Of a stretch of 59,234 bases of DNA, positions 839-54,206 are shown piece by piece. Numbering within the stretch: the first letter of the stretch is position 1; each line of letters opens with the position of its first letter. The stretch covers positions 1 to 59,234 of the forward strand of contig JAHDID010000037.1 of the NCBI GenBank assembly GCA_020630975.1. The letters are read 5' to 3'. The notes under the pieces are model-generated. The model worked only from the letters and a program-made list of their open reading frames with translations, searched no databases and was not told where the DNA came from. The translations under genes were made by a program, and so were the position numbers. The DNA is from Verrucomicrobiota bacterium. GTDB lineage: Bacteria; Verrucomicrobiota; Verrucomicrobiia; Verrucomicrobiales; DEV007.

Positions 839-1540
839 TCAAATCAGTCCCTCGCGAAATGCCTTAGCGACGGCTCCACCGACGGTGCAGACGTGTAGCT
901 TTTTGTAGATCCGGCGAATGTAATTGTCGATGGTGTGAGGACTCAATCCCAATTGTATAGAGATTTCTTTTCGAGTCAGGCCATCGGCGAGTAGATTCAG
1001 AACATTGAGTTCCTGCTCGGATAGCGGCACGGTTTTGCCTACGCTTTCGGATGCGGGTTCACGATCGTTGGGTGATTGGGGATCACTATTCTTAAACTGA
1101 TTAATGACTTGGCGGGCGATTTCCGGACTCATCGGGACTCCCCCGTCTTTGATTTCTTCAACGGCAGAGACGATGCGATCGACGCTTTCTTTCTTTAATA
1201 AGAAACCGGAAGCACCCGCACTGATGGCTTCAAAAATTCGATCACGGTCATCGCTTGTCGTGAACATGAGAATTTCGGTATCGGGAATGGCGCTTTTCAA
1301 CAGACGGATATCCTCAAGACCGGAGGTACCCTGAGGGCCAACCTCAAGTATAACAACCGCAGGGAGTCCGACTGTACCCTGTACGGTCTCGCAGTGTATA
1401 GGGTACAGTCCGTTTCTCTTCAAAGATTCGATCGCATCCTTACAAGTCGGAAATGCTTCCACTTCGTCGCTACCCGACAGAGCAAGTGCTTCTCGAAGCG
1501 TTTTGCGAAGTTTCTCGTGAGTATCGATAATCCAGATCAT
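839..1540 (-). CDS. LuxR/NarL-type response regulator with atypical receiver
   Basis: A 233-residue protein with an N-terminal receiver domain (about residues 1-130) and a C-terminal LuxR helix-turn-helix (about 170-233, with LSEQELNVL, LTRKEISIQLGLS and HTIDNYIRRIYKKL). The usual phospho-acceptor aspartate after beta-3 is a glutamate here (VVILEV where VVLLDI is typical), so ordinary phosphorylation is doubtful and the protein may be locked in one state. The loop before beta-3 carries about 13 extra residues encoded by an inverted repeat (1370-1410). The gene lies 21 bases downstream of the sulfatase gene on the same strand, so cotranscription with the sialidase and sulfatase is likely. No sensor kinase gene is in view. 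Targets are unknown; the adjacent autotransporter is one candidate. Confidence 0.9.
   Translation of the reverse strand: MIWIIDTHEKLRKTLREALALSGSDEVEAFPTCKDAIESLKRNGLYPIHCETVQGTVGLPAVVILEVGPQGTSGLEDIRLLKSAIPDTEILMFTTSDDRDRIFEAISAGASGFLLKKESVDRIVSAVEEIKDGGVPMSPEIARQVINQFKNSDPQSPNDREPASESVGKTVPLSEQELNVLNLLADGLTRKEISIQLGLSPHTIDNYIRRIYKKLHVCTVGGAVAKAFREGLI
1370..1410. repeat. Palindromic element inside the receiver-domain coding sequence
   Basis: Perfect 11-base arms GACTGTACCCT (1370-1380) and AGGGTACAGTC (1400-1410) flank a 19-base loop. The right side, ATAGGGTACAGTCC (1398-1411), matches 14 of 14 bases at 40966-40979, inside the 21-base tandem repeats near the 40,950-41,217 repeat cluster. 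The element is in frame and encodes about 13 residues in the loop before beta-3 of the receiver. GTCCG occurs on both sides (1366-1370, 1408-1412) and could be a target duplication or chance. Confidence 0.7.
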
Positions 1541-1561: not shown

Positions 1562-3028
1562 TCAGTCTTCGAAAAAGTATTCAAGATAAGAGAGATGGAG
1601 ATGTTCCTTGTTCGGTTTGCCCTCCCGGAAGCTGGCATCGATTTCGCGTTTCAGACGGTAGACATTTTCTTCCTTCAGAAAAGGATCGCTGCTCTGTTGC
1701 CGCCATTCCAGCAATACTTCCCGTAGTTCTTTCAGCTTTAACTGATGGCCAGAATGGGAAGCAAGGTTGGTGAATTCATACGGATCGTTATCGAGGTCGT
1801 AGAGTTCAAATTCCGGAGGGCGCTCCATGATCCGGTAGGCAGATTGAACTTTCTCCGGAGCTGTATTGATCGCGTTTTCTATATCTGGAAAAAACATTTC
1901 TAAGGTGAATGCATATCCCGGATTAATCATTCCGGGAATCAGGTTGTGAATCAATTTGTAGCGGCTGTCTCGAACCGTTCGCTGCGGGAAATAGTTATGA
2001 GCCGAGTGCAGTTGGAATTCGGTAAACAGGTATTTTCGCCATTCGACTTCGCTCTCATCGAATAAATCAAGTAACGATCTGCCCGGCAGTCCTGTCGGTA
2101 TTTCCGCCCCGGCAGCTTCGAGGATGGTTGGCATTAGGTCGAGAGTGGAAACGAGTTCCTCTCTAATTTTCTCTTTGGGGACTTTACCAGGCCAACGAAC
2201 AATGAGAGGGATTCGCAGCCCTCCTTCATAAGAGGTTCGTTTACCACGGAGTAGATCGGCACCGTGATCGCCAAGATAAATTACCAGGGTGTTATCGCGT
2301 TTACCCGACTCATCCAAAATCTGTAGCAAATCACCGATCTGTGCATCAAGCCTGACCATGCAGTTGTAATAGTTTGCCGTTTGTTGCCTCAAATCCGGAG
2401 AGTCGAGTCCAAAATACGCCAACGGCCTCACTTCATCGGCTGTCAGAGGTTCATCGGGCAAGCCTTCAACTTGCGGAGTGAACGGGCGGTGGGCATCGGG
2501 AAAATTGACGCTCAGAAAAAAGGGTTGATCGGATTGATTGATAAAAGTTCCAGCTTCTTTCGCATAGGCACTTATATCCTTTCGAGCAAAGTTGGCGGAA
2601 GGGATCTTTTTATAGTCAAAGGGAAACGCCGATTCAGGATTAATATGTAGTTTGCCGATGATCCCGGTTCGATACCCTGTCTCTTTTAAGCACCTCACCA
2701 GGTTTGGAGTCGATTGATCGTAGAGCCTGAATTTCCAGGTCGCCAATCCAATCTGTCCATTCTGATGAGGGTAGAGACCGGTGAGAAGGGCTGCCCGGGA
2801 TTGACTGCAACCTGCCTGCGGTACAAAGGCTCGCTTAAAGAGAACTCCCTCGGTAGCAAAATGATCCAATACCGGAGTTTTTACATAGGGTTCACCGTAA
2901 CAGGATAACTCCGGGCCGTTGTCTTCTGAGACGATGAGAAGGATGTTTGGCCGCTTGTTTTCGCTCTGGCACGATATGGCCAAAAGCGAGAGCAGAATGA
3001 TTGGCAAAATGTAGCGTAATCGGCTCAT
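1562..3028 (-). CDS. Sulfatase, formylglycine-dependent type (S1 family), exported
   Basis: A 488-residue arylsulfatase-superfamily enzyme, expected to remove sulfate esters from glycans outside the cytoplasm. An N-terminal signal ends in AISC with Cys20, a possible lipobox. Metal ligands are visible as SEDNG (D36, N37) and GDHG (D254, H255), with GKLH at about 125-128. The active-site motif is C74-S-Q-S-R78; the usual third residue is Pro or Ala, so conversion of the Cys to formylglycine must tolerate Gln. The start overlaps the end of the sialidase gene by four bases (ATGA, 3025-3028), which indicates translational coupling. In the sialic acid context it may desulfate mucin-like or marine glycans so that the sialidase can act; the true substrate cannot be read from the sequence. 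Confidence 0.93.
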
Positions 3029-4254
3029 TTCCTGCCAAGTATCCGATCTGTATCAGAGATTTTAAATCGAGTCGACATCACTGAATGCTTCTCGGACCCT
3101 GGTCGGTGCTTGATATAAGTCGTCGCCACAATGGTACCGTCTTCCAGTAACTCAAGCCCTGGATAGCCACAGTCACGAACACCCTTGGCGTAGCTGTGCA
3201 GGAGCTTAATTCTATACTGACCGGGGCGGCCTTTCTTGATCGCATCATAGGGACCGACCCATGCGACAAAATGGCCCCAGGTTGGGCTGTTGATCGCCAT
3301 ATCGCGAAAGGCAAAAACATACCGTCCATCAGGTAACCGAATACCTATATGGCGATCACCGGTCAATCCCCAGGGTGTATCGACAGGTTGACTCCAGGTT
3401 TTACCTTCGTCGTTGGAGTACATCACCAAACTGCGGCCTTTGTGGCTGTTCTCCCGCATCAGGCAACAGATTTCATTTCCGTTTGGTGCGCGAAACATAA
3501 AGGGTTCGCAGGGGCTCTTTCCCTCGACTTCTGCCACAATCTTTGGTTCGCTCCAGGTGAAACCTCCATCTCCGGTAATGGTTTGCAGCACCTTGAGCGG
3601 CGGACGGTCTTTACCATCGGGACCTACGTGATACAACCCGAGATAGCTGCCGTTTTTTAATTTCATGACACTGCTGAAGGTCATCACACAAGGAAGGTTA
3701 AGTGGCGGCATTTCCTTCCAGGAAACGCCATCGTCTTCACTCATAATGCTCGGCATTCCCGGACCACTGCTAGTTCCTTTAGCGGCCGACCATACCCAAA
3801 GTCTGGATTTACCATCGGGGTCGGTGAGCCGATAAATACTCGGGCAGTTGAGATGTTTTTTAAACTCAGCAGGCAACTGGTCATCCAGCCGATTCCAGGT
3901 AAGCCCGCCATCTGTGCTCTTTGCCATCGGTCCGGCTAAACCTCCATGGTTGATACACCAAACGGCAAACAGTGTTTTTTTATCAGGCATCAACAGCGTG
4001 GTTGGGTGACCTTGATAGACCTCCTCTGTGCCCTGAGCGATTATGACATGCCGTTCTGTCGAACCGGAGATATCGACTATCGGGAGGTTGGCTTTTTCCT
4101 GAGCGATAACTGAAAGTGAACCAAAGCTGACAACGAAAATTGCACAGATCACTATGGGGATTGTAACACGGGCCTCCCGGTCCGTGCCAGTACGAATTGC
4201 AGGCACGGACCGGGAGGCCCGTGTTTCTTTGTAAATGACTTCTAAAGGTTTCAT
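3025..4254 (-). CDS. Exo-sialidase-like protein (BNR/Asp-box repeats), exported
   Basis: A 409-residue protein with at least four Asp boxes of the S-x-D-x-G-x-T-W type: [24 protein letters not shown] and SNDEGKTW. These mark the six-bladed sialidase fold (GH33-like), which frees terminal sialic acid from glycans. The hydrophobic signal segment [20 protein letters not shown] ends near residue 51. Ahead of it lie about 20 odd Arg-rich residues encoded by the inverted repeat 4166-4224, so the natural signal peptide was probably MKPLEVIYK joined directly to the hydrophobic core. The gene lies 10 bases downstream of the GntR gene and overlaps the sulfatase gene by four bases. Divergent nanA supports a sialic acid role. 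Related BNR hydrolases with other substrates cannot be excluded. Confidence 0.88.
4166..4224. repeat. Perfect 23-base inverted repeat inside the sialidase signal peptide
   Basis: Arms at 4166-4188 and 4202-4224 are perfect reverse complements around a 13-base loop; the core arm reads GGGCCTCCCGGTCCGTGCC. The 59-base element is GC-rich, unlike the flanks, and is in frame in the sialidase gene. It encodes about 20 residues rich in Arg, Ala, Ser and Thr between the start codon and the hydrophobic signal core. This looks like insertion of a mobile palindrome that left the reading frame intact. Confidence 0.9.
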
Positions 4255-11652: not shown

Positions 11653-13584
11653 CTACCACCGCCAACTAGCTTTCACCGTGCCCAAATGCAGCTGCGCATC
11701 CTCCTGGAAGAAACGACTCTGGTAGTCGAAGAATAGACCGAAGTGGTTTTTGAAATCAAAACCCACTCCCGCGCCGAATTCCATCCAACCCTCTCCGGGA
11801 TCGACTTGGCTGAGACTATTGGTTAGAGTGGCTCCACGGCCGACGATAGCATTGGTAGCTGCATTGACTCGGGCAAATGGGCTCTGCTGCAGGGTGCCGC
11901 TGACATTGCGCTCTTGATCCAGATTTTCTCGACCATAACCGGCGCGGAAGGTTGGGCGCATCGCTCCCCAGCTGGTGTCGTGACGCCAATTGAGTTGCCA
12001 ACCTAGAGTCGTGATAAACGATTCATAATCCTGCTCTCTGAACCGAGTATTAAAAGCGGCATTGCCGGTCTCAGTATAGCCATCGAGCGTTCCCCAACTA
12101 TAGTCGGCCCGAAAGGTTGGGCCGTGGACGAAGCGATCTTCTACTGGAATATTGTAGCCGAGGTTAAGTGTGGTTTGGTGCGCCTCAATATCAGGAGTCG
12201 CACGCATGGTCGATCCGAAAGCGTTACGTTTGATGTCTGCCTCATAATCTCCGTAACTATAGAATACATCTGCCCATAGATTGTCTTTAAAATACGAAGT
12301 ATAGAACATGGCGGTATCCCCTTCGATATCGACATTGCCGACTCCGCCAGCTAAAGTATTATCATTCCAGACATGCGACCAACCGACACCGACTGCCCAG
12401 TTTTCGTTGATCACATATTCAATACCAGCGGTAGCAGCATAGGTATTACTTTCCACGCCAGGGCTACCACCAAGAGCATCGAGATCGTATTGGCCAAAAT
12501 CGGCTGAGGCAAAGATTTCCCAGTTATTACCCGCAGCGACGACACTCGGATCGCTAGAGTGGCCCGCCTGTTGAGTGACACTTGGCATCATCCACTCAGC
12601 ACTATCGCTGAAGGTTACTGTGTCAAAATGGATACTATCATCATTGACACTTGGGGTGCTAGCCTCGGTGCGACCAGTGAGATTGATGGTGTTAGTGATT
12701 TCCAGGTCGCGCTCAGCTTGAAAATGTCTAGCAGCAGAGACTTCACGACCACGGCGGATGCGATTTTCTCTCTGGAACTGATGAGTGTGCCTACCTCGTA
12801 ATCGATGGATACGCTGGTTGAGGCTGCGACCGCCGACGTTATGAACATTGCTAGCAATCTGGCCGACCGTCATGTTCATCGGGATAGCACTTGCGAGTAG
12901 CTGAGTAATAGCACCTCTATCAATGACATTGATAAATCGAGGAGTCGGAGTTGGTGTGGGCGTTGGTGTCGGTGTCGGTGTCGGGGTGGGTGTCGGAGTG
13001 ACGGGCCGCGTCTGGAAAAAGAAAATAGTTTCTCCATTTGGTAATGCTATATCAAACGGGGTTGTCGGGCCGATTCGCGCAGCAAAAGTTGTCGCATCAA
13101 AATTGATACCACCTGAAAACTCTGAATCACTGGTATACGTAGGAGGGAGCCATATCGCCCCATTAATCGTGTCAGGGTATAGCACAAATTCGTCGCCAAA
13201 CCCCGTGCCACTTAGATCACCTCCAGAGTTTAAATCAGCCCATGTCGCGACACCATTATACCGAATATAGTTCGTCCCGGTCGCTGATTGAATATTCCAT
13301 AACCGTCCACTTGCCTGCCAAAGGCCATAACGGTCCAAAGTGCTAGCCTGTGGATTGTGTGATGGTGTGAGTGCCGCTGTGTTGATCGAACCTTCGTAGG
13401 CTAATGTGGTAGTTGTCCCTGCTGTGTTAACTGAGACCCATACATCACCCTTGAGATTGCTTGTAAAGGAGAGATTAGATAACAACACAAACGTGAGCAG
13501 TAAAGCATTGATTCGATGGAAAAAACTTCGAGAGCCTGTATTCCGTTGGAATCTGTAAAATTGGGTGCTTTGCGTTTCTGTCAT
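11653..13584 (-). CDS. Autotransporter with Thr-Pro linker
   Basis: A 643-residue type V secretion-like protein. Residues 1-46 form an extended signal (basic start, then INALLLTFVLLSNLSF). A short passenger of about 145 residues follows (to about 190), then a Thr-Pro repeat linker (about 191-213). Next come a FINVID stretch and an Arg/His-rich segment (about 250-295, RSLNQRIHRLRGRHTHQF), and an outer-membrane beta-barrel from about 353 to the end. The last residues, KASWRW, end in an aromatic as expected for the assembly signal. From the FINVID stretch onward it is almost identical to the next gene at 13776-15740. The passenger has no known enzymatic motif and may act in adhesion or surface display. 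Confidence 0.85.
   Translation of the reverse strand: MTETQSTQFYRFQRNTGSRSFFHRINALLLTFVLLSNLSFTSNLKGDVWVSVNTAGTTTTLAYEGSINTAALTPSHNPQASTLDRYGLWQASGRLWNIQSATGTNYIRYNGVATWADLNSGGDLSGTGFGDEFVLYPDTINGAIWLPPTYTSDSEFSGGINFDATTFAARIGPTTPFDIALPNGETIFFFQTRPVTPTPTPTPTPTPTPTPTPTPRFINVIDRGAITQLLASAIPMNMTVGQIASNVHNVGGRSLNQRIHRLRGRHTHQFQRENRIRRGREVSAARHFQAERDLEITNTINLTGRTEASTPSVNDDSIHFDTVTFSDSAEWMMPSVTQQAGHSSDPSVVAAGNNWEIFASADFGQYDLDALGGSPGVESNTYAATAGIEYVINENWAVGVGWSHVWNDNTLAGGVGNVDIEGDTAMFYTSYFKDNLWADVFYSYGDYEADIKRNAFGSTMRATPDIEAHQTTLNLGYNIPVEDRFVHGPTFRADYSWGTLDGYTETGNAAFNTRFREQDYESFITTLGWQLNWRHDTSWGAMRPTFRAGYGRENLDQERNVSGTLQQSPFARVNAATNAIVGRGATLTNSLSQVDPGEGWMEFGAGVGFDFKNHFGLFFDYQSRFFQEDAQLHLGTVKASWRW
12199..12459. 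repeat. 261-base block identical to 14322-14582
   Basis: Every base of this stretch of barrel coding sequence equals 14322-14582 (constant offset 2123). Flanking barrel sequence differs at scattered positions. This indicates recent duplication or gene conversion between the two tandem autotransporter genes. Confidence 0.93.
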
Positions 13585-13627
13585 CGGTTCGTGTGTCGGC
13601 GTCGATACTAGAACGAATTGGGGAAAT

Positions 13628-13668
13628 TTGTCATGCCGCTGAATCCAGCGGCATAGGTGCTTGATTGT
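13628..13668. repeat. Dispersed ATGCC-palindrome element, copy upstream of autotransporter 11653-13584
   Basis: Core palindrome at 13633-13654: arms ATGCCGCTG and CAGCGGCAT around AATC. The 41-base stretch matches 15798-15838 at all but two positions. It lies about 45 bases upstream of an autotransporter start, as does the second copy. It could be a regulatory site or a small mobile palindrome. Confidence 0.75.
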
Positions 13669-13738
13669 TAAGTATCCTTGACTATTTTCATCCCTTCTCT
13701 AACCGCGAGTTTCCCGTTCCCTTCCGTGTCCCCATATT

Positions 13739-13753
13739 CAGTGGCATGCATTT
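13739..13753. repeat. Half copy of the ATGCC-palindrome element
   Basis: CAGTGGCATGCATTT occurs here and again at 21233-21247. CAGTGGCAT is the reverse complement of the left arm of the element at 15803-15824. It lies just downstream of the autotransporter gene at 13776-15740. Confidence 0.55.
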
Positions 13754-13775
13754 CCTCTGAAATTATTGAAAGCTT

Positions 13776-15740
13776 TCACCACCGCCAACTCGCCTTCACC
13801 GTGCCCAAATGCAATTGCGCATCCTCCTGGAAAAAGCGGCCCTGGTAATCGAAGAATAGACCGAAGTTTTTGTGGAAATCGAAACCCACTCCCGCGCCGA
13901 ATTCCATCCAACCCTCTCCGGGATCGACTTGGCTGAGACTATTGGTTACGGTCGCACCACGGCCTACGATTGCGTTAGTCGCAGTATTGACTCGGGCAAA
14001 GGGGCTCTGCTGTAGAGTGCCACTGACATTGCGCTCTTGATCGAGATTTTCTCGACCATAGCCGACGCGGAAGGTTGGGCGCATGGCTCCCCATCTGGTG
14101 TCGTGACGCCAGTTGAGTTGCCAACCTAAAGTCGTGATAAAGGATTCATAATCCTGCTCTCTGAACCGCGTATTAAAAGCGGCGTTGCCGGTCTCGGTGT
14201 AGCCATCGAGTGTTCCCCAGCTGTAGTCGGCACGAAAGGTTGGGCCGTGGACGAAACGATCTTCTACTGGAATATTGTAGCCGAGGTTAAGTGTGGTTTG
14301 GTGCGCTTCGATATCGGGAGCCGCACGCATGGTCGATCCGAAAGCGTTACGTTTGATGTCTGCCTCATAATCTCCGTAACTATAGAATACATCTGCCCAT
14401 AGATTGTCTTTAAAATACGAAGTATAGAACATGGCGGTATCCCCTTCGATATCGACATTGCCGACTCCGCCAGCTAAAGTATTATCATTCCAGACATGCG
14501 ACCAACCGACACCGACTGCCCAGTTTTCGTTGATCACATATTCAATACCAGCGGTAGCAGCATAGGTATTACTTTCCACGCCTGGGCTACCACCAAGAGC
14601 ATCGAGATCGTATTGGCCAAAGTCAGCTAATGCAAAGACTTCCCAATTATTCCCCGCAGCAACGACGCGGGGATCACTGGAGTAAAGCGCATGTTGAGTG
14701 ACACTTGGCATTATCCATTCGGCATTATCGTTGAAAGTTACTGAGTCAAAATGGAGACCACTGGCATTGACGCTCGGAATACTAGCCTCGGTACGACCAG
14801 TGAGATTGATGGTGTTAGTGATTTTTAGGTCACGCTCAGCTTGGAAATGTCTAGCCGCAGAGACTTCGCGGCCACGTCGGATGCGATTTTCTCTCAGGAA
14901 CTCATGTGTGTGTCTACCCCGCAAGCGATGGATGCGCTGGTTGAGACTGCGACCGCCGACATTGTGTATATTGCTGGCAATCTGACCAATAGTCATATTC
15001 ATAGGGATGCCGCTACCGACAAGTTGATTGATAGCACTTGTATCAATGATATTGATAAATTGAGGGACTGGAATAGGTGTCGGAGTGGGTGTCGGAGTCG
15101 ATGTTGTGCATCCTGGCGAAGTCGTATCGTCGATAGGCGAGCCTAAAAGCTGTATTTCGGAGAAGCCAAATCTGGTAAAGCCAACGGCCTGAGACACTGT
15201 GATTTCCAGCGTATGGGAACCGTCTGTCAAAGTGGTTATGAGAGGAATTACGGTGGTTTGAGTGCCACCTGCTGTTCTACCATTAGTATTTGCTCCACCT
15301 GCAGCAGTTCCCGACACCCCGTTAACGTTCACCGCAAATTGCGCTTGTACGGTGATATTATCTTCCAACAGTAGATTACCACCCTCAAAGTAATCATAAG
15401 TCAAAGAAACACCATTAACACTCAAGTTATCAATGCAATGTTGCAGGGCCACATTGAAAGATATTACATAATCGTTTGGCGTTTGATGAGGCTGCTGAAA
15501 TCCAATAAACCCATGAGAATCAGGGTGAATAGCCCCCGGGGTTTCCAGGCCGGAAATAGTCGTGGGAAGGCCATTGATGTTTGGATCAGAATTCCAGCTG
15601 ATGCCGCTAATGCTGGTTGCGTTTGGAGTTGGAATAACACCCGAAAAATCACTAGTGAATAACTGCGCATCGACTTTACCGATGATCAGGCAACAGAAGC
15701 AAATTGCGATAAGCAACTTCAGGTGTGGTTTGTGTGTCAT
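13776..15740 (-). CDS. Autotransporter, tandem paralogue with different passenger
   Basis: A 654-residue protein with a signal peptide (MTHKPHLKLLIAICFCCLIIG, cleavage near VDA). Its passenger of about 185 residues, to about 210, does not align by eye with that of the neighbour. It has a short Thr-Pro linker (about 212-223), an INIIDTSAINQL stretch, the Arg/His-rich segment (about 260-305), and a beta-barrel from about 360 to the C-terminal KASWRW. The passenger has alternating beta-strand patterns and a predicted lectin-like look (FIGFQQPHQTPNDYVISF), but I cannot name a fold. The barrel is near-identical to that of the downstream gene 11653-13584. Its own copy of the palindrome element lies about 60 bases upstream. 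Confidence 0.85.
   Translation of the reverse strand: MTHKPHLKLLIAICFCCLIIGKVDAQLFTSDFSGVIPTPNATSISGISWNSDPNINGLPTTISGLETPGAIHPDSHGFIGFQQPHQTPNDYVISFNVALQHCIDNLSVNGVSLTYDYFEGGNLLLEDNITVQAQFAVNVNGVSGTAAGGANTNGRTAGGTQTTVIPLITTLTDGSHTLEITVSQAVGFTRFGFSEIQLLGSPIDDTTSPGCTTSTPTPTPTPIPVPQFINIIDTSAINQLVGSGIPMNMTIGQIASNIHNVGGRSLNQRIHRLRGRHTHEFLRENRIRRGREVSAARHFQAERDLKITNTINLTGRTEASIPSVNASGLHFDSVTFNDNAEWIMPSVTQHALYSSDPRVVAAGNNWEVFALADFGQYDLDALGGSPGVESNTYAATAGIEYVINENWAVGVGWSHVWNDNTLAGGVGNVDIEGDTAMFYTSYFKDNLWADVFYSYGDYEADIKRNAFGSTMRAAPDIEAHQTTLNLGYNIPVEDRFVHGPTFRADYSWGTLDGYTETGNAAFNTRFREQDYESFITTLGWQLNWRHDTRWGAMRPTFRVGYGRENLDQERNVSGTLQQSPFARVNTATNAIVGRGATVTNSLSQVDPGEGWMEFGAGVGFDFHKNFGLFFDYQGRFFQEDAQLHLGTVKASWRW
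14322..14582. repeat. 261-base block identical to 12199-12459
   Basis: Partner of the identical block in the neighbouring autotransporter gene. Both lie in the middle of the barrel coding sequence. Confidence 0.93.
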
Positions 15741-23468: not shown

Positions 23469-25961
23469 CTACCAGCGCCAGCTGGCCTTCACAGTGCCCA
23501 GATGCAGCTGGGCATGTTCTTGGAAAAAGCGGGCTTGGTAGTCGAAGAACAACCCAAAGTTACTATTAAAATCTAAACCCATACCAGCACCAAATTCCAT
23601 CCAACCTTCGCCGGGATCGACTTGGCTTAGGCTGCGGCTAACGCTTGCGCCTCGGCCGACAACAGCTCCAGTGGCGGTATTGATTTGCGCGACAGGGCTT
23701 TGTTGTAAGGTTCCACTGACGTTGGTCTCTTGGTTGAAGTTCTCTCTGCCGTAACCGAGACGAAAGGTCGGGCTCATCGCTCCCCACGTTGTGTCGTGAT
23801 TCCAGTTAAGCTGCCAACCGAGGGTGGTGATCAGGGATTCATAATCTTGCTCGCGGAACATACTACTGGCGCGGATGTCGCCGGTTTCGGTATAACCATC
23901 GAGTTGTCCCCAACTGTAGTCGGCGCGGAAAGTCGGACCGTGTACGAAGCGGTTTTCTACAGGAATGTTGTAGCCGAGATTAAGAGTGGTCTGGTGACTC
24001 TCGATATCGGGACTAGCGGTGACCGTGGAGCCTAGTCCTGTATTACGGGTGATATCCGCCTGGTAATCACCATAACTATAGAAAATATCTCCCCAGAAGT
24101 TGTTGTTAAAATAGGAGGCGTAGGTCATATAGGCATCGCCCTCGATATCCACGCCGCCTAGGCCATTGCGCAGGGTGTTATCATTCCATATATGCGACCA
24201 GCCCACGCCTACTGCGCAGTTTTCATTGAGTACATATTCGATACCAGCGGTGGCTGCATAGGTATGACTATCCAGGCCTGGGCTACCGCCGAGAGCATCG
24301 AGATCGTATTGACCAAAGTCGGCGGCGGCAAACACTTCCCAATTGTTGCCGTATGCAATCACATCCGGATCGGCTGAATGATTGGCTGGCTGAGTGACGC
24401 TGGGTACAAATGGATTGGCATCGTTAACGTCTGTCGAACGGCTGTGTGCTGCACTAGAAGTAACACCTGTTGTAGCGGCGGTTGTTTGACCGTTGAGGTT
24501 GATTGTATTGGTTATGTTCATATCTCGCTCTGCTCGGTGATACCTTGAAGCAGAGACTTCGTGCCCACGGCGCATCCTGTGCTCCCGCTCGAAGGGGGTA
24601 TGCCGCATTCTTAGGCGGTAGATACGCTGGTTGAGACTCCGACCCGCGACGTTATGGATATTAGCTGCAACCTGGCCTACTGCCAAATTCATCGGGATCG
24701 CACTATCTATTAATTGATCGATGGCTGCGGTATCGGTAACCTCGATGATTGTCGGAATGACAGTGGTACCACCGCCTCCACCAGTGCTTCCTCCACCCCC
24801 TCCACCAGTGCTTCCTCCACCCCCTCCAGAGGGAGGCTTGATGATCTCTGTGATCACCAGATCGATCGAGCCATCGGCTGTGTTGTGAACAAGCGTCGCG
24901 GTCCAACCAGTCGGTAAAACCAACCCCAGGTCACCAACATTCCCAGTCAGTGCTCCTGAGTAGTCGAAAAGCGGGACGGTTCCAATATTGCATCGCCCAC
25001 TGTCATCAACCACCACGGTTCCCGGAGTGCCTGACAAGTATAGACGGTTCGCATTTATCAAATCACTAGTCGTATCACTGAGATCGAAATGAAAATTACC
25101 ACCAGTTAGATCGAGGCCGGCTCCACCGAAAGTCAGTGTGCCGATACTGTTGTCACCCGGCCTGAGGGTTGCCCCGGCGGTTCGCAGGGCGTTAATGCGA
25201 GTAAGGGTAGTAGGCATCGATACCAAACCTGTGCCGCTTAAAGTTTGGCTCGGTTGTAGCGTGTATCCCAAGTTGGTCACACCCGTTTCAGTGAGATCCC
25301 AGATTCCATTGGCGACAATACTCGGTGAAGCGATCGAAGTGATATCGCGGTGAAAGCGCAGCGTTCCATCGGTGATCCTGGTTTCACCTGTGTAGGAAAA
25401 GGTCCCAGAACGGAAGTAGACATCACCGCTACTGGTATCGTTTACCTCAACCCCGCCCGTACCAGAAAGACCTGACCTAATACGAATGATCGAGTCTCCG
25501 GCAGCATTGAGCTGGATGTCATCGTTTAAAATAACAGGCAAAAACAGATCGAGATTACCTGTGCCACTGCTGTTGACCTGTGCGATGGCTCCATTGTTAT
25601 CGAAAGCAAACTGCTGAGCTCCCGACTGTCGGTTGATAAATCCCGGTGCCGTGGCATTTAAAATCCCGATCGTCACGGAATCTCGCAGTTGAATCACATT
25701 CGTCCCAAAGGCCGCTGAGGGAAAATTGGTGATATTTACGGTAGCGCCGGCGTTATTGGTGGGAGCTGTGCCGCCAGCCCAGTTGCCGCCAAAGGCTGTG
25801 CCCCATAATTGGCTATTGTTGCCGCCAAGGCCGCCGGTGAAATCGAAATTTTGCGCATGAAGGTTATCACTTAGAATCAAGACAATCAAAGCCAAGCCCG
25901 CGCGCAGCCATCCTTTTACGACGCCTGGGGGGAAACTTAAATTGAGAAAGCAACAATCCAT
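23469..25961 (-). CDS. Autotransporter with beta-strand-repeat passenger and Gly-Ser linker
   Basis: An 830-residue paralogue with the largest passenger. A signal region (GWLRAGLALIVLILSDNLHA) ends near residue 36. Residues 40-370 contain autotransporter-associated beta-strand repeats, such as LSGTGGVEVNDTSSGDVYF and YTGETRITDGTLRF, which form right-handed beta-helices in known autotransporters. The linker is GGGGGGSTGGGGGG-like (about 377-399) instead of Thr-Pro. Then follow the Arg/His-rich segment (about 439-485, RSLNQRIYRLRMRHTPF) and the barrel (about 537-830) ending KASWRW. Barrel similarity to the tandem pair is high in protein but lower in DNA, so this copy is older. No palindrome element was seen upstream. 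Confidence 0.88.
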   Translation of the reverse strand: MDCCFLNLSFPPGVVKGWLRAGLALIVLILSDNLHAQNFDFTGGLGGNNSQLWGTAFGGNWAGGTAPTNNAGATVNITNFPSAAFGTNVIQLRDSVTIGILNATAPGFINRQSGAQQFAFDNNGAIAQVNSSGTGNLDLFLPVILNDDIQLNAAGDSIIRIRSGLSGTGGVEVNDTSSGDVYFRSGTFSYTGETRITDGTLRFHRDITSIASPSIVANGIWDLTETGVTNLGYTLQPSQTLSGTGLVSMPTTLTRINALRTAGATLRPGDNSIGTLTFGGAGLDLTGGNFHFDLSDTTSDLINANRLYLSGTPGTVVVDDSGRCNIGTVPLFDYSGALTGNVGDLGLVLPTGWTATLVHNTADGSIDLVITEIIKPPSGGGGGSTGGGGGGSTGGGGGTTVIPTIIEVTDTAAIDQLIDSAIPMNLAVGQVAANIHNVAGRSLNQRIYRLRMRHTPFEREHRMRRGHEVSASRYHRAERDMNITNTINLNGQTTAATTGVTSSAAHSRSTDVNDANPFVPSVTQPANHSADPDVIAYGNNWEVFAAADFGQYDLDALGGSPGLDSHTYAATAGIEYVLNENCAVGVGWSHIWNDNTLRNGLGGVDIEGDAYMTYASYFNNNFWGDIFYSYGDYQADITRNTGLGSTVTASPDIESHQTTLNLGYNIPVENRFVHGPTFRADYSWGQLDGYTETGDIRASSMFREQDYESLITTLGWQLNWNHDTTWGAMSPTFRLGYGRENFNQETNVSGTLQQSPVAQINTATGAVVGRGASVSRSLSQVDPGEGWMEFGAGMGLDFNSNFGLFFDYQARFFQEHAQLHLGTVKASWRW

Positions 25962-40950: not shown

Positions 40951-40962
40951 AAACGACCGAAT

Positions 40963-41016
40963 TCAATAGGGTACAGTCCCGACTGAATAGGGTACAATTT
41001 TCATTCAATAGGGTAC
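40963..41016. repeat. Three 21-base-spaced copies of TCAATAGGGTAC
   Basis: Copies begin at 40963, 40984 (TGAATAGGGTAC) and 41005, exactly 21 bases apart, which is two turns of the helix. The second and third are separated by AATTTTCAT. The same unit occurs twice at 53117-53149. The first copy continues as AGTCC, giving the 14-base match to the palindrome in the response regulator gene. It forms the left part of a 337-base gap (40951-41287) with no gene. Confidence 0.85.
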
Positions 41017-52989: not shown

Positions 52990-53116
52990 GTGTGTGTATG
53001 CGTGTTCCTAGACGGATCAAACAGTCGCCTATGTGTCTGAGCAACTGAATATCTGAGACGGGATGCGCTCCGCTACCGGTGCAGATGGAGCGCGACAGGC
53101 CTGAAATCCCTAAAAT

Positions 53117-53149
53117 TCAATAGGGTACAATTTTCATTCAATAGGGTAC
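53117..53149. repeat. Two 21-base-spaced copies of TCAATAGGGTAC
   Basis: Identical 12-base units start at 53117 and 53138, with AATTTTCAT between, matching the array at 40963-41016. The pair ends 13 bases before the start codon of the next gene (53163). The rest of 52990-53162 shows no gene. Confidence 0.85.
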
Positions 53150-53162
53150 AATCGGTCTATCC

Positions 53163-54206
53163 ATGCCGCAGTGGCTTGTGCTAGGCTGCCCTGTAGTGGC
53201 GGCTTTGGCAAAATCGATCCTAGGAGGTGGGCTCCTATTCATCTGCAGTCTCTGGCAGTGCCAGGGGCAGCTACAGCTGCGTCTCCCTCAGCAGTCGCAG
53301 GCTGGCTATGGTGTGGTGCCGCAGGTGGGCCAGATCTGGCAGACAGTGGCAGATCAGAGCTTCGAGCCGACGGAGCTGCGAGCCGAATTGAAGGCGGGGA
53401 ACACTTATCGGTTTCTCGTGAAGACCGATGTTACGTTATCGCCGCCGGGGCAGACGCAGCGGCTGTTTTCCATGGAGCAGCAGGCGCGATACGATGTCGG
53501 TCTGCGCGAAGCTGGAAAGGGCGTGGCGGTGCGCGGTATCACCGAGCGACTGAAGGTGGACATACAGGCTGCAGGTAGGTCGGTGAGCTATGACTCGCTG
53601 GTCAAAAATCCCGCAGATGCTGAGCTGGCGAAGCACTTCGAGGCGGCAGTCTACCGCTATGTGAAGATGGAGCTGAATACGCAGATGAAGATCCTCTCTC
53701 GGCACGAGGCGGGGCGGCAGGTGGAGAATGCGGGCTCTCCGCTAGCTGTGCTGCCGCACTTTGGTCCGGATGAGCTGGTGCAGATCGTCGAGTCGCTGCC
53801 GCAGCCTTTCACCAGCCGAGTCGTAGCCGTGGGCGATCAATGGCAGCTGCAGGGGCAGCAGCCTGTGGGGGAGCTGGGAGAGTTGAGCTTTAGTATCGAC
53901 TACCGACTGGCAGAGGTGGTCGAGTATCAGCGTCACCGATGTGTCGCGATTGATTTTTATGGTAGGCTCAGCGGCGAGCTGGCTGACGAGGCGGCCAGTC
54001 GTGTCGACTTTCACGAGGCGCAGCTATCTGGTAGGCTGCTCTACGATCCAGCTATCCAGATGATCCGCTACAGCGATCAGCAGCTGCTGATGGTGGCGAA
54101 TCTACCTGACGAGACCGATCACCAGAAAAAGGTGCATGTGCCTCTGAGCCAAAAAATCGTGCTCGAGCTGATGCAGGTGGTACCGAAGAAAAAGCCAAAG
54201 AAGTGA
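53163..54206 (+). CDS. Hypothetical exported protein, DUF6263-like
   Basis: A 347-residue protein with a signal segment (VAALAKSILGGGLLFICSLW) and a beta-rich mature part (ELKAGNTYRFLVKTDVTLSP, SMEQQARYDVGLREAGKGVA, LSFSIDYRLAEVVEY). The repeated pattern of long strands and Gly-turns resembles DUF6263-type periplasmic proteins, but this is by eye only. A Lys-rich C terminus (VPKKKPKK) ends it. The 21-base repeats lie just ahead of its start, inside the expected promoter or leader. The function is unknown. Confidence 0.7.
   Translation: MPQWLVLGCPVVAALAKSILGGGLLFICSLWQCQGQLQLRLPQQSQAGYGVVPQVGQIWQTVADQSFEPTELRAELKAGNTYRFLVKTDVTLSPPGQTQRLFSMEQQARYDVGLREAGKGVAVRGITERLKVDIQAAGRSVSYDSLVKNPADAELAKHFEAAVYRYVKMELNTQMKILSRHEAGRQVENAGSPLAVLPHFGPDELVQIVESLPQPFTSRVVAVGDQWQLQGQQPVGELGELSFSIDYRLAEVVEYQRHRCVAIDFYGRLSGELADEAASRVDFHEAQLSGRLLYDPAIQMIRYSDQQLLMVANLPDETDHQKKVHVPLSQKIVLELMQVVPKKKPKK

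Follow-up and report, generated by a model that had tools for sequence, protein, structure and literature searches.

The minus strand of positions 839–1540 encodes a LuxR/NarL-type response regulator of 233 residues (Pfam Response_reg, 1.8e-13, and GerE, 3.7e-13; alignment with 19 other sequences), and its gene adjoins one for a sulfatase. Positions are those of the window, by which we mean the whole 59,234-nucleotide stretch analysed, and the genome that contains it is called G000. Inside the regulator gene, at 1370–1411 on the minus strand, lies a 42-nt palindromic element delimited by its arms and by a covariance model; it makes up exactly 14 codons, for the peptide GLYPIHCETVQGTV. The left arm, GACTGTACCCT (1370–1380), and the right arm, AGGGTACAGTC (1400–1410), neither assigned to a strand, are complementary over 11 bases without a mismatch, with 19 nt in between; if mismatches are permitted, a repeat finder reports arms of 24 nt at 79%. 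The covariance model matches 1369–1411 with 59 bits, this copy being itself part of the model's training set. The initial annotation had reported perfect 11-base arms in frame within a receiver, and the frame 839–1540 does stay open across the entire palindrome. Gene calls came from a hexamer script that trimmed starts badly (the regulator to 839–1267, the sialidase described below to 3025–3684), and the census of genic sites given later was redone with extended ORFs.

The receiver of the window regulator has Asp-Thr in place of the acidic pair Glu-Asp at 6–7 and Glu in place of the phospho-acceptor Asp (66). Given these substitutions, the protein is perhaps independent of phosphorylation. Elsewhere in the window, the contig starts within a GGTGTG hexamer repeat of 9.8 copies (1–59), three autotransporter beta-domain proteins are encoded (11653–15740 and 23469–25961), and there are sulfatases; planctomycete-type domains occur in the congener G042 and in one protein of G000 and, taken with the sulfatases, suggest a host of the PVC group.

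Taken alone, the arms of the regulator palindrome do not exceed chance expectation. Over thirty mononucleotide shuffles, perfect 11-base arm pairs with a loop of at most 30 averaged 0.47 per window; the real window holds 10, of which one is the regulator hairpin and nine are frames of a hairpin in a sialidase-like ORF (3025–4254). The regulator palindrome stands above chance because it belongs to a repeat family, not because of its arms. The sialidase palindrome (4165–4225) is a perfect 24-bp inverted repeat at codons 10–30 of its ORF; it precedes a stretch that by eye resembles a signal peptide, so that translation may start after it and the palindrome itself may be non-coding. In a sample of about 1.58 Mb from two genomes no other copy occurred, the matches being 13–14 bases at most, and it was rejected as a second family member since it bears no sequence relation to the regulator palindrome. 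The initial annotation had suggested, from both together, that palindromes invade genes at tolerant sites; copies of the regulator family do occupy loops, linkers or positions close to N-termini, but pooling them with the unrelated sialidase palindrome is not supported.

Insertion relative to homologues

Twenty-nine loci with regulator homologues were fetched and 22 of them aligned, the other seven, mostly partial matches, being left out. None of the 22 homologues, all from other genomes, has the insert: 14 residues are absent from 18 of them, and 11, 12, 15 and 16 residues from one each. The earlier estimate of about 13 extra residues ahead of β3 was thus close, and no aligned homologue from another genome carries the loop. 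The insert is placed between helix α2 (33–42) and strand β3 (62–66) of the predicted fold, where pLDDT falls below 50 at residues 49–56 (mean 77.7), so that it is predicted to form a disordered or low-confidence surface loop.

A paralogue in the same genome (G000:C104), 70% identical, keeps both the insert (GLSPEQPETVQGTV versus GLYPIHCETVQGTV in the window) and the hairpin. Compared with the window copy, one A-T pair of its hairpin has become C-G, with full compensation, and another is a G-U pair; each paralogue has one broken pair among 15. The two genes differ at 9 of 42 bases within the element versus 191 of 642 across the rest of the aligned gene. Since both paralogues carry the insert, the insertion is not recent. 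The C104 gene lies directly downstream of a HisKA_3/HATPase histidine kinase gene and retains the receiver's acidic residues. Because this kinase-linked paralogue keeps those residues while the window copy has a degenerate receiver, the insertion was most likely into a functioning two-component gene, before its duplication.

Palindromes elsewhere in the genus

The covariance model, R1, was built from five palindromes of G000, two of which sit in paralogous genes. In G000 it found five places, its five source copies (E 8.7e-12 to 1.7e-10), and the next-best place had E 0.4 (150 of 725 first-look candidates scored). In G042, where 150 of 2445 candidates were scored, there were 82 strand-matches that correspond to 50 distinct places among the matches listed. 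Across the set of 33 genus genomes, G040 and G005 have one place each, and 29 genomes have none. The copies follow a common plan of 42–43 nt. Several genic copies use one reading frame, giving the peptides GLYPVQSESVQGTV, GLYPVLSGTIQGTV and GVYPVRSGSVQGTV in other genes, and others are read in a different frame, such as STVPCSVPVERTGYG within citrate synthase; they sit at loops, linkers or close to N-termini.

Insertion is also seen in two further proteins. A cytochrome-type protein has an exact 14-residue insert relative to orthologues of 65% and 61% identity (alignment of nine relatives, L156 ignored as a wrong-strand artefact). The citrate synthase has 12 extra residues relative to a 74%-identical orthologue and to PDB 2c6x; its alignments with PDB 8gll and 6wgy begin inside the insert and are nearly gapless there. 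For a PSCyt/PSD protein of G042 (C252, peptide GLYPVLSGTIQGTV) insertion is not demonstrable, the G000 orthologue having a linker of similar length. The expectation that the palindrome would prove to be a dispersed repeat, inserted relative to homologues and with kin in frame in other genes, was therefore borne out. As in palindromes of the Rickettsia (RPE) type, several unrelated loci are occupied and the insertion is in frame relative to homologues (regulator, cytochrome-type protein and citrate synthase). As regards a MITE, the inverted arms are present, and two empty-site comparisons, with diverged flanks, revealed no clear target-site duplication.

Loop length does vary among receivers, and chance alone supplies about 0.47 pairs of 11-base arms per window, yet a chance palindrome in an ordinary variable loop is scarcely credible: the same sequence family, with the same encoded peptide, occurs at unrelated loci, and the paralogue has retained both insert and hairpin.

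A second palindrome sub-family, AAGGTACCCTGTACCCTC...GAGGGTACAGGGTACCTTC, was observed at L283 (G042 C219, about 45.5–49.5 kb) and at L119:14162-14202, with copies nearer one another than other sites are.

Direct arrays of the same core

The initial annotation had noted a 14-base match between the right arm and an intergenic repeat. Within the window the 14-mer, ATAGGGTACAGTCC, has exactly two occurrences, 1398–1411 and 40966–40979. The match is real and the matched repeat is far from a unique chance occurrence, being very abundant, but the ATAGGG part is private to the window copy: the paralogue has TCAGGA, and the other three G000 copies have ACAGGG, ACCGGG and GCCGGG. It is the common core, together with G042, that relates palindrome and intergenic repeat, and not the full 14 bases. 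The second occurrence belongs to an intergenic direct array on the plus strand (40961–41016) of three 21-bp units with the core AATAGGGTAC, starting at 40965, 40986 and 41007. Another plus-strand intergenic array (53115–53150) has two 21-bp units and ends 14 bp ahead of a start called at 53163.

The genome-wide search for the repeat that had been proposed found the core ATAGGGTACA 706 times in G000, where the reversed control occurs 9 times. Allowing at most one mismatch, ATTCAATAGGGTACA has 580 occurrences in G000; of 35 relatives, G042 not among them, 7 have one or two. The core AGGGTACA builds direct arrays, mostly of 2–4 units, with AAT in G000 versus AAC in G042. Their period is 21 bp in 29 of 30 gaps in G000 and 22 bp in 22 of 25 gaps in G042. 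Pairs of the form AGGGTAC-N12-16-AGGGTAC number 373 in G000 and 734 in G042; three other genomes have 1–2 and 28 of the 33 have none, and the reversed control gave one each in two genomes. Abundant arrays are thus absent from 31 of the 33 genus genomes. Direct arrays are the abundant form in G000, where five palindromes were found. No match to the repeat was found in viral contigs. A scan of named genomes listed, among its matches, L092 from a Nostoc sp. JL33 MAG, a look-alike of the array core containing AATAGGGTACAGGTTACAGGG; it was rejected as a family member because it is a different, short-period tandem.

We counted 40 sites in 850 kb of G000 and 67 in 731 kb of G042, the coding fractions of the sampled sequence being 0.857 and 0.869, respectively. 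The G000 sites comprise 32 intergenic, 6 in called genes and 2 only in 5'-extended ORFs (one of them the window palindrome); in G042, 56 lie between genes, 6 within genes and a further 5 within extended ORFs alone. Of the six genic G000 arrays, four start in roughly the first 10 codons and may sit ahead of the real start codon; the other two are internal, in a Y-family polymerase-like protein and in porphobilinogen deaminase (L267:17398-18432). In the latter, three in-frame 21-bp units encode FNRVQSGLNRVQKKFNRVQ, which falls between two segments alignable with solved enzymes. The direct arrays showed no consistent place relative to genes (tandem contexts after a stop versus not: 7 and 7 in G000, 8 and 4 in G042). 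A role as 3'-end terminators, at which the first 17 loci had hinted, was abandoned once contigs with gene calls gave no clear preference for one orientation.

Could the unit be an ordinary REP of a REP/BIME family, moved by the Y1 tyrosine transposase (RAYT) of the genus? Short units in inverted and in tandem order are reminiscent of REP/BIME organisation, 27 of 33 genomes have Y1_Tnp matches, and for Opitutus terrae intragenic REP dimers are on record (PMC3733652). However, neither GTAG nor CGTC is a conserved end in the five G000 or 29 G042 elements aligned. At the Y1 loci examined (7 of 16 matches in G000 and 7 of 12 in G042, 14 of 28 altogether), units lay within 500 bp in 0 of 7 and 1 of 7 cases, respectively; one G042 locus had units at about 240 bp and one at about 800 bp, and the nearest in G000 was at about 1.9 kb, apart from one isolated 7-mer. 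These distances are what unit density predicts on a rough estimate, and genomes with 40 (G038) and 33 (G015) Y1 matches are without array pairs. Mobilisation by RAYT, for which the 14 Y1 loci examined gave no support, is an improbable explanation.

Conservation within the direct arrays is concentrated in the core. Outside the search word, core positions A-2, C-1 and A-7 are kept at 67/67, 66/67 and 66/67 in G042, and A-2, A-3 and A-7 each at 49/49 in G000, whereas positions in the middle of the linker vary almost at random. Neighbouring direct units resemble one another no more than shuffled ones do, save for one of 26 position tests at p=0.03, and recent tandem duplication of units was rejected on this ground. 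Near-invariant cores, random linkers and unlike neighbours point to site-wise selection on the direct cores. The palindromes behave differently from the direct units with respect to pairing. In 29 G042 palindromes the two arms co-vary, one outer pair reaching 18 of 29 versus 8.1 expected and one inner pair 22 versus 12.6, with 0 of 2000 shuffles as high, in a test that ignores relatedness among copies; such co-variation points to a retained hairpin or to inverted copying. Direct units show no within-unit co-variation at -6/+8 in either species, and hairpin formation by them was rejected; their -8/+10 pair in G000 is somewhat above expectation (38 versus 27.2). In G000 the palindromes have a 22-bp centre spacing versus 21 bp in direct arrays, and given this difference the two forms may not serve one purpose.

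Sites in both species are more evenly spread than random. The median interval between neighbouring sites is about 16 kb in G000 and 9.6 kb in G042. Under a uniform null, the coefficient of variation (CV) was 0.594 versus 0.937 expected in G000 (n=35, p=0.001), with no interval below 4 kb versus 18% expected, and 0.496 versus 0.865 in G042 (n=46), with 0 of 5000 simulations as low; this set retains the '--++' sites and a 20-kb G000 piece. An intergenic null, which excluded four '--++' G042 palindromes, the 20-kb piece and one N-rich G042 contig, gave 0.585 versus 0.996 in G000 (n=34, p=0.0007) and 0.407 versus 0.977 in G042 (n=42, 0 of 3000 as low), with no G042 pairs below 2 kb versus 13.6 expected. 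Some coding DNA lost to start trimming is treated as intergenic in this second null; the uniform null, which uses no gene calls, agrees with it. The result was repeated with nine G000 contigs, which gave 0.516 versus 0.85 (n=24, p=0.0014), with one interval below 5 kb versus 5.3 expected; these are contigs of known length, seven others with sites being left out and one site of C15 missing, and C15 overlaps the 20-kb piece of the uniform-null set. The window palindrome lies 39.6 kb from the next site and is not itself an example of even spacing.

In the few blocks compared between G000 and G042, no exactly shared site was seen. The nearest case is an array 28 bp past a gene end in G000 versus about 870 bp past the end of the orthologue, beyond another gene, in G042. 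With no site at the same place in both species within these blocks, any function would not fix individual sites.

The strongest rival reading is a selfish element with target immunity, whose transposase-driven copies would repel one another and so account for dispersal, even spacing and gene insertions without a function for the cell. The species-specific abundance, the insertions into genes (cytochrome-type protein and citrate synthase), the deficit of site pairs below about 6–10 kb and the lack of shared sites in those blocks all speak for it. Against it, the core is near-invariant outside the search word while linkers are near random and neighbouring units unlike, and a search for transposases of Y1 type found none linked to the unit; a recent neutral burst is disfavoured because it would preserve linkers as well as cores. 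We regard the selfish element as unlikely, if worth keeping in mind.

Even spacing also recalls DNA uptake sequences, for which it was reported by Karlin et al. according to PMC1939737; the arrays would then be self-marks that tag conspecific DNA for natural transformation. Copies in the hundreds and a species-specific core base (AAT versus AAC) fit this idea. The units, however, occur in fixed-period pairs or more and are mainly intergenic, whereas for two species PMC1939737 puts the share of uptake sequences lying within reading frames at 65% and 35%, and we give the idea little credence.

Interpretation and closest known systems

We consider it probable that the regulator insert is a REP/RPE-like coding palindrome, the genic palindromic form of pseudo-palindromic, probably protein-bound units that are arranged in phased pairs. 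A 42-nt inverted pair of the unit, roughly GACTGTAC-AGG-GTACAGTC, would have entered the α2–β3 loop of an ancestral regulator encoded beside its histidine kinase and been kept in frame as a disordered surface loop. Gene duplication would then have copied the insert, leaving the window copy beside a sulfatase gene and with a degenerate receiver. The unit exists in two arrangements, as inverted pairs, 22 bp from centre to centre, with co-varying arms able to form a hairpin, and as direct arrays of 2–4 units (21-bp period in G000, 22-bp in G042), mostly between genes. Because direct-array cores are kept while linkers drift, and because sites are evenly spaced, the units are candidate sites for a sequence-specific DNA-binding protein that would need at least two sites on one helix face, at intervals of very roughly 10–16 kb. 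The palindrome would have moved in the manner of a REP-like element.

More tentatively, and with somewhat less than even confidence, the arrays could constitute a chromosome-wide marking, in which selected, helically phased groups of 2–4 putative protein-binding units recur about every 10–16 kb with a species-specific core base and period, and the palindromic form lodges in genes. If such a marking system exists, even housekeeping proteins carry the peptide of its palindrome. Two species with hundreds of sites beside 28 congeners free of array pairs would make the distinction between selfish and chromosome-serving repeats directly testable.

In-frame palindromes are already known; evenly spaced arrays that share their core are the new part, and a search of titles and abstracts in the open-access literature found no description of this unit or of evenly spaced paired arrays. 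With its empty-site evidence, which includes citrate synthase, the present case adds another lineage to those with in-frame coding palindromes and ties such palindromes to an abundant array that is seemingly selected and evenly spaced. Rickettsia palindromic elements (RPE; Ogata et al. 2000, 2002) are described in PMC10969869 as in-frame palindromes in many unrelated genes with a recurrent peptide. The likeness to RPEs drawn here is to such descriptions; RPEs are given there as about 150 bp, whereas the element here has 42 nt, belongs to another lineage and shares its core with mostly non-coding direct arrays. The GTAG/CGTC REPs of PMC3733652 are also short palindromic repeats, some of them intragenic. 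By that account most copies are intergenic, over half of the intragenic ones are dimers or groups encoding 20–30 residues, and intragenic GTAG copies are mostly in the verrucomicrobium O. terrae. The unit here differs in having no GTAG/CGTC tag, in an inverted pair of 42 nt or 14 codons, and in a core that is found, too, in direct arrays with even spacing and a fixed period of 21/22 bp. BIMEs have short units at regular spacing and in alternating orientation (PMC2817692), but their unit is a different one and no link to RAYT was found here. The uptake sequences of Pasteurellaceae and Neisseriaceae occur in hundreds to thousands of copies with species variants, and their even spacing, reported by some, is disputed (PMC1939737). 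High copy number, species variants and even spacing are shared with the arrays described here, which differ in occurring as pairs or more at a helical period, in being mostly intergenic and in having a palindromic coding form.
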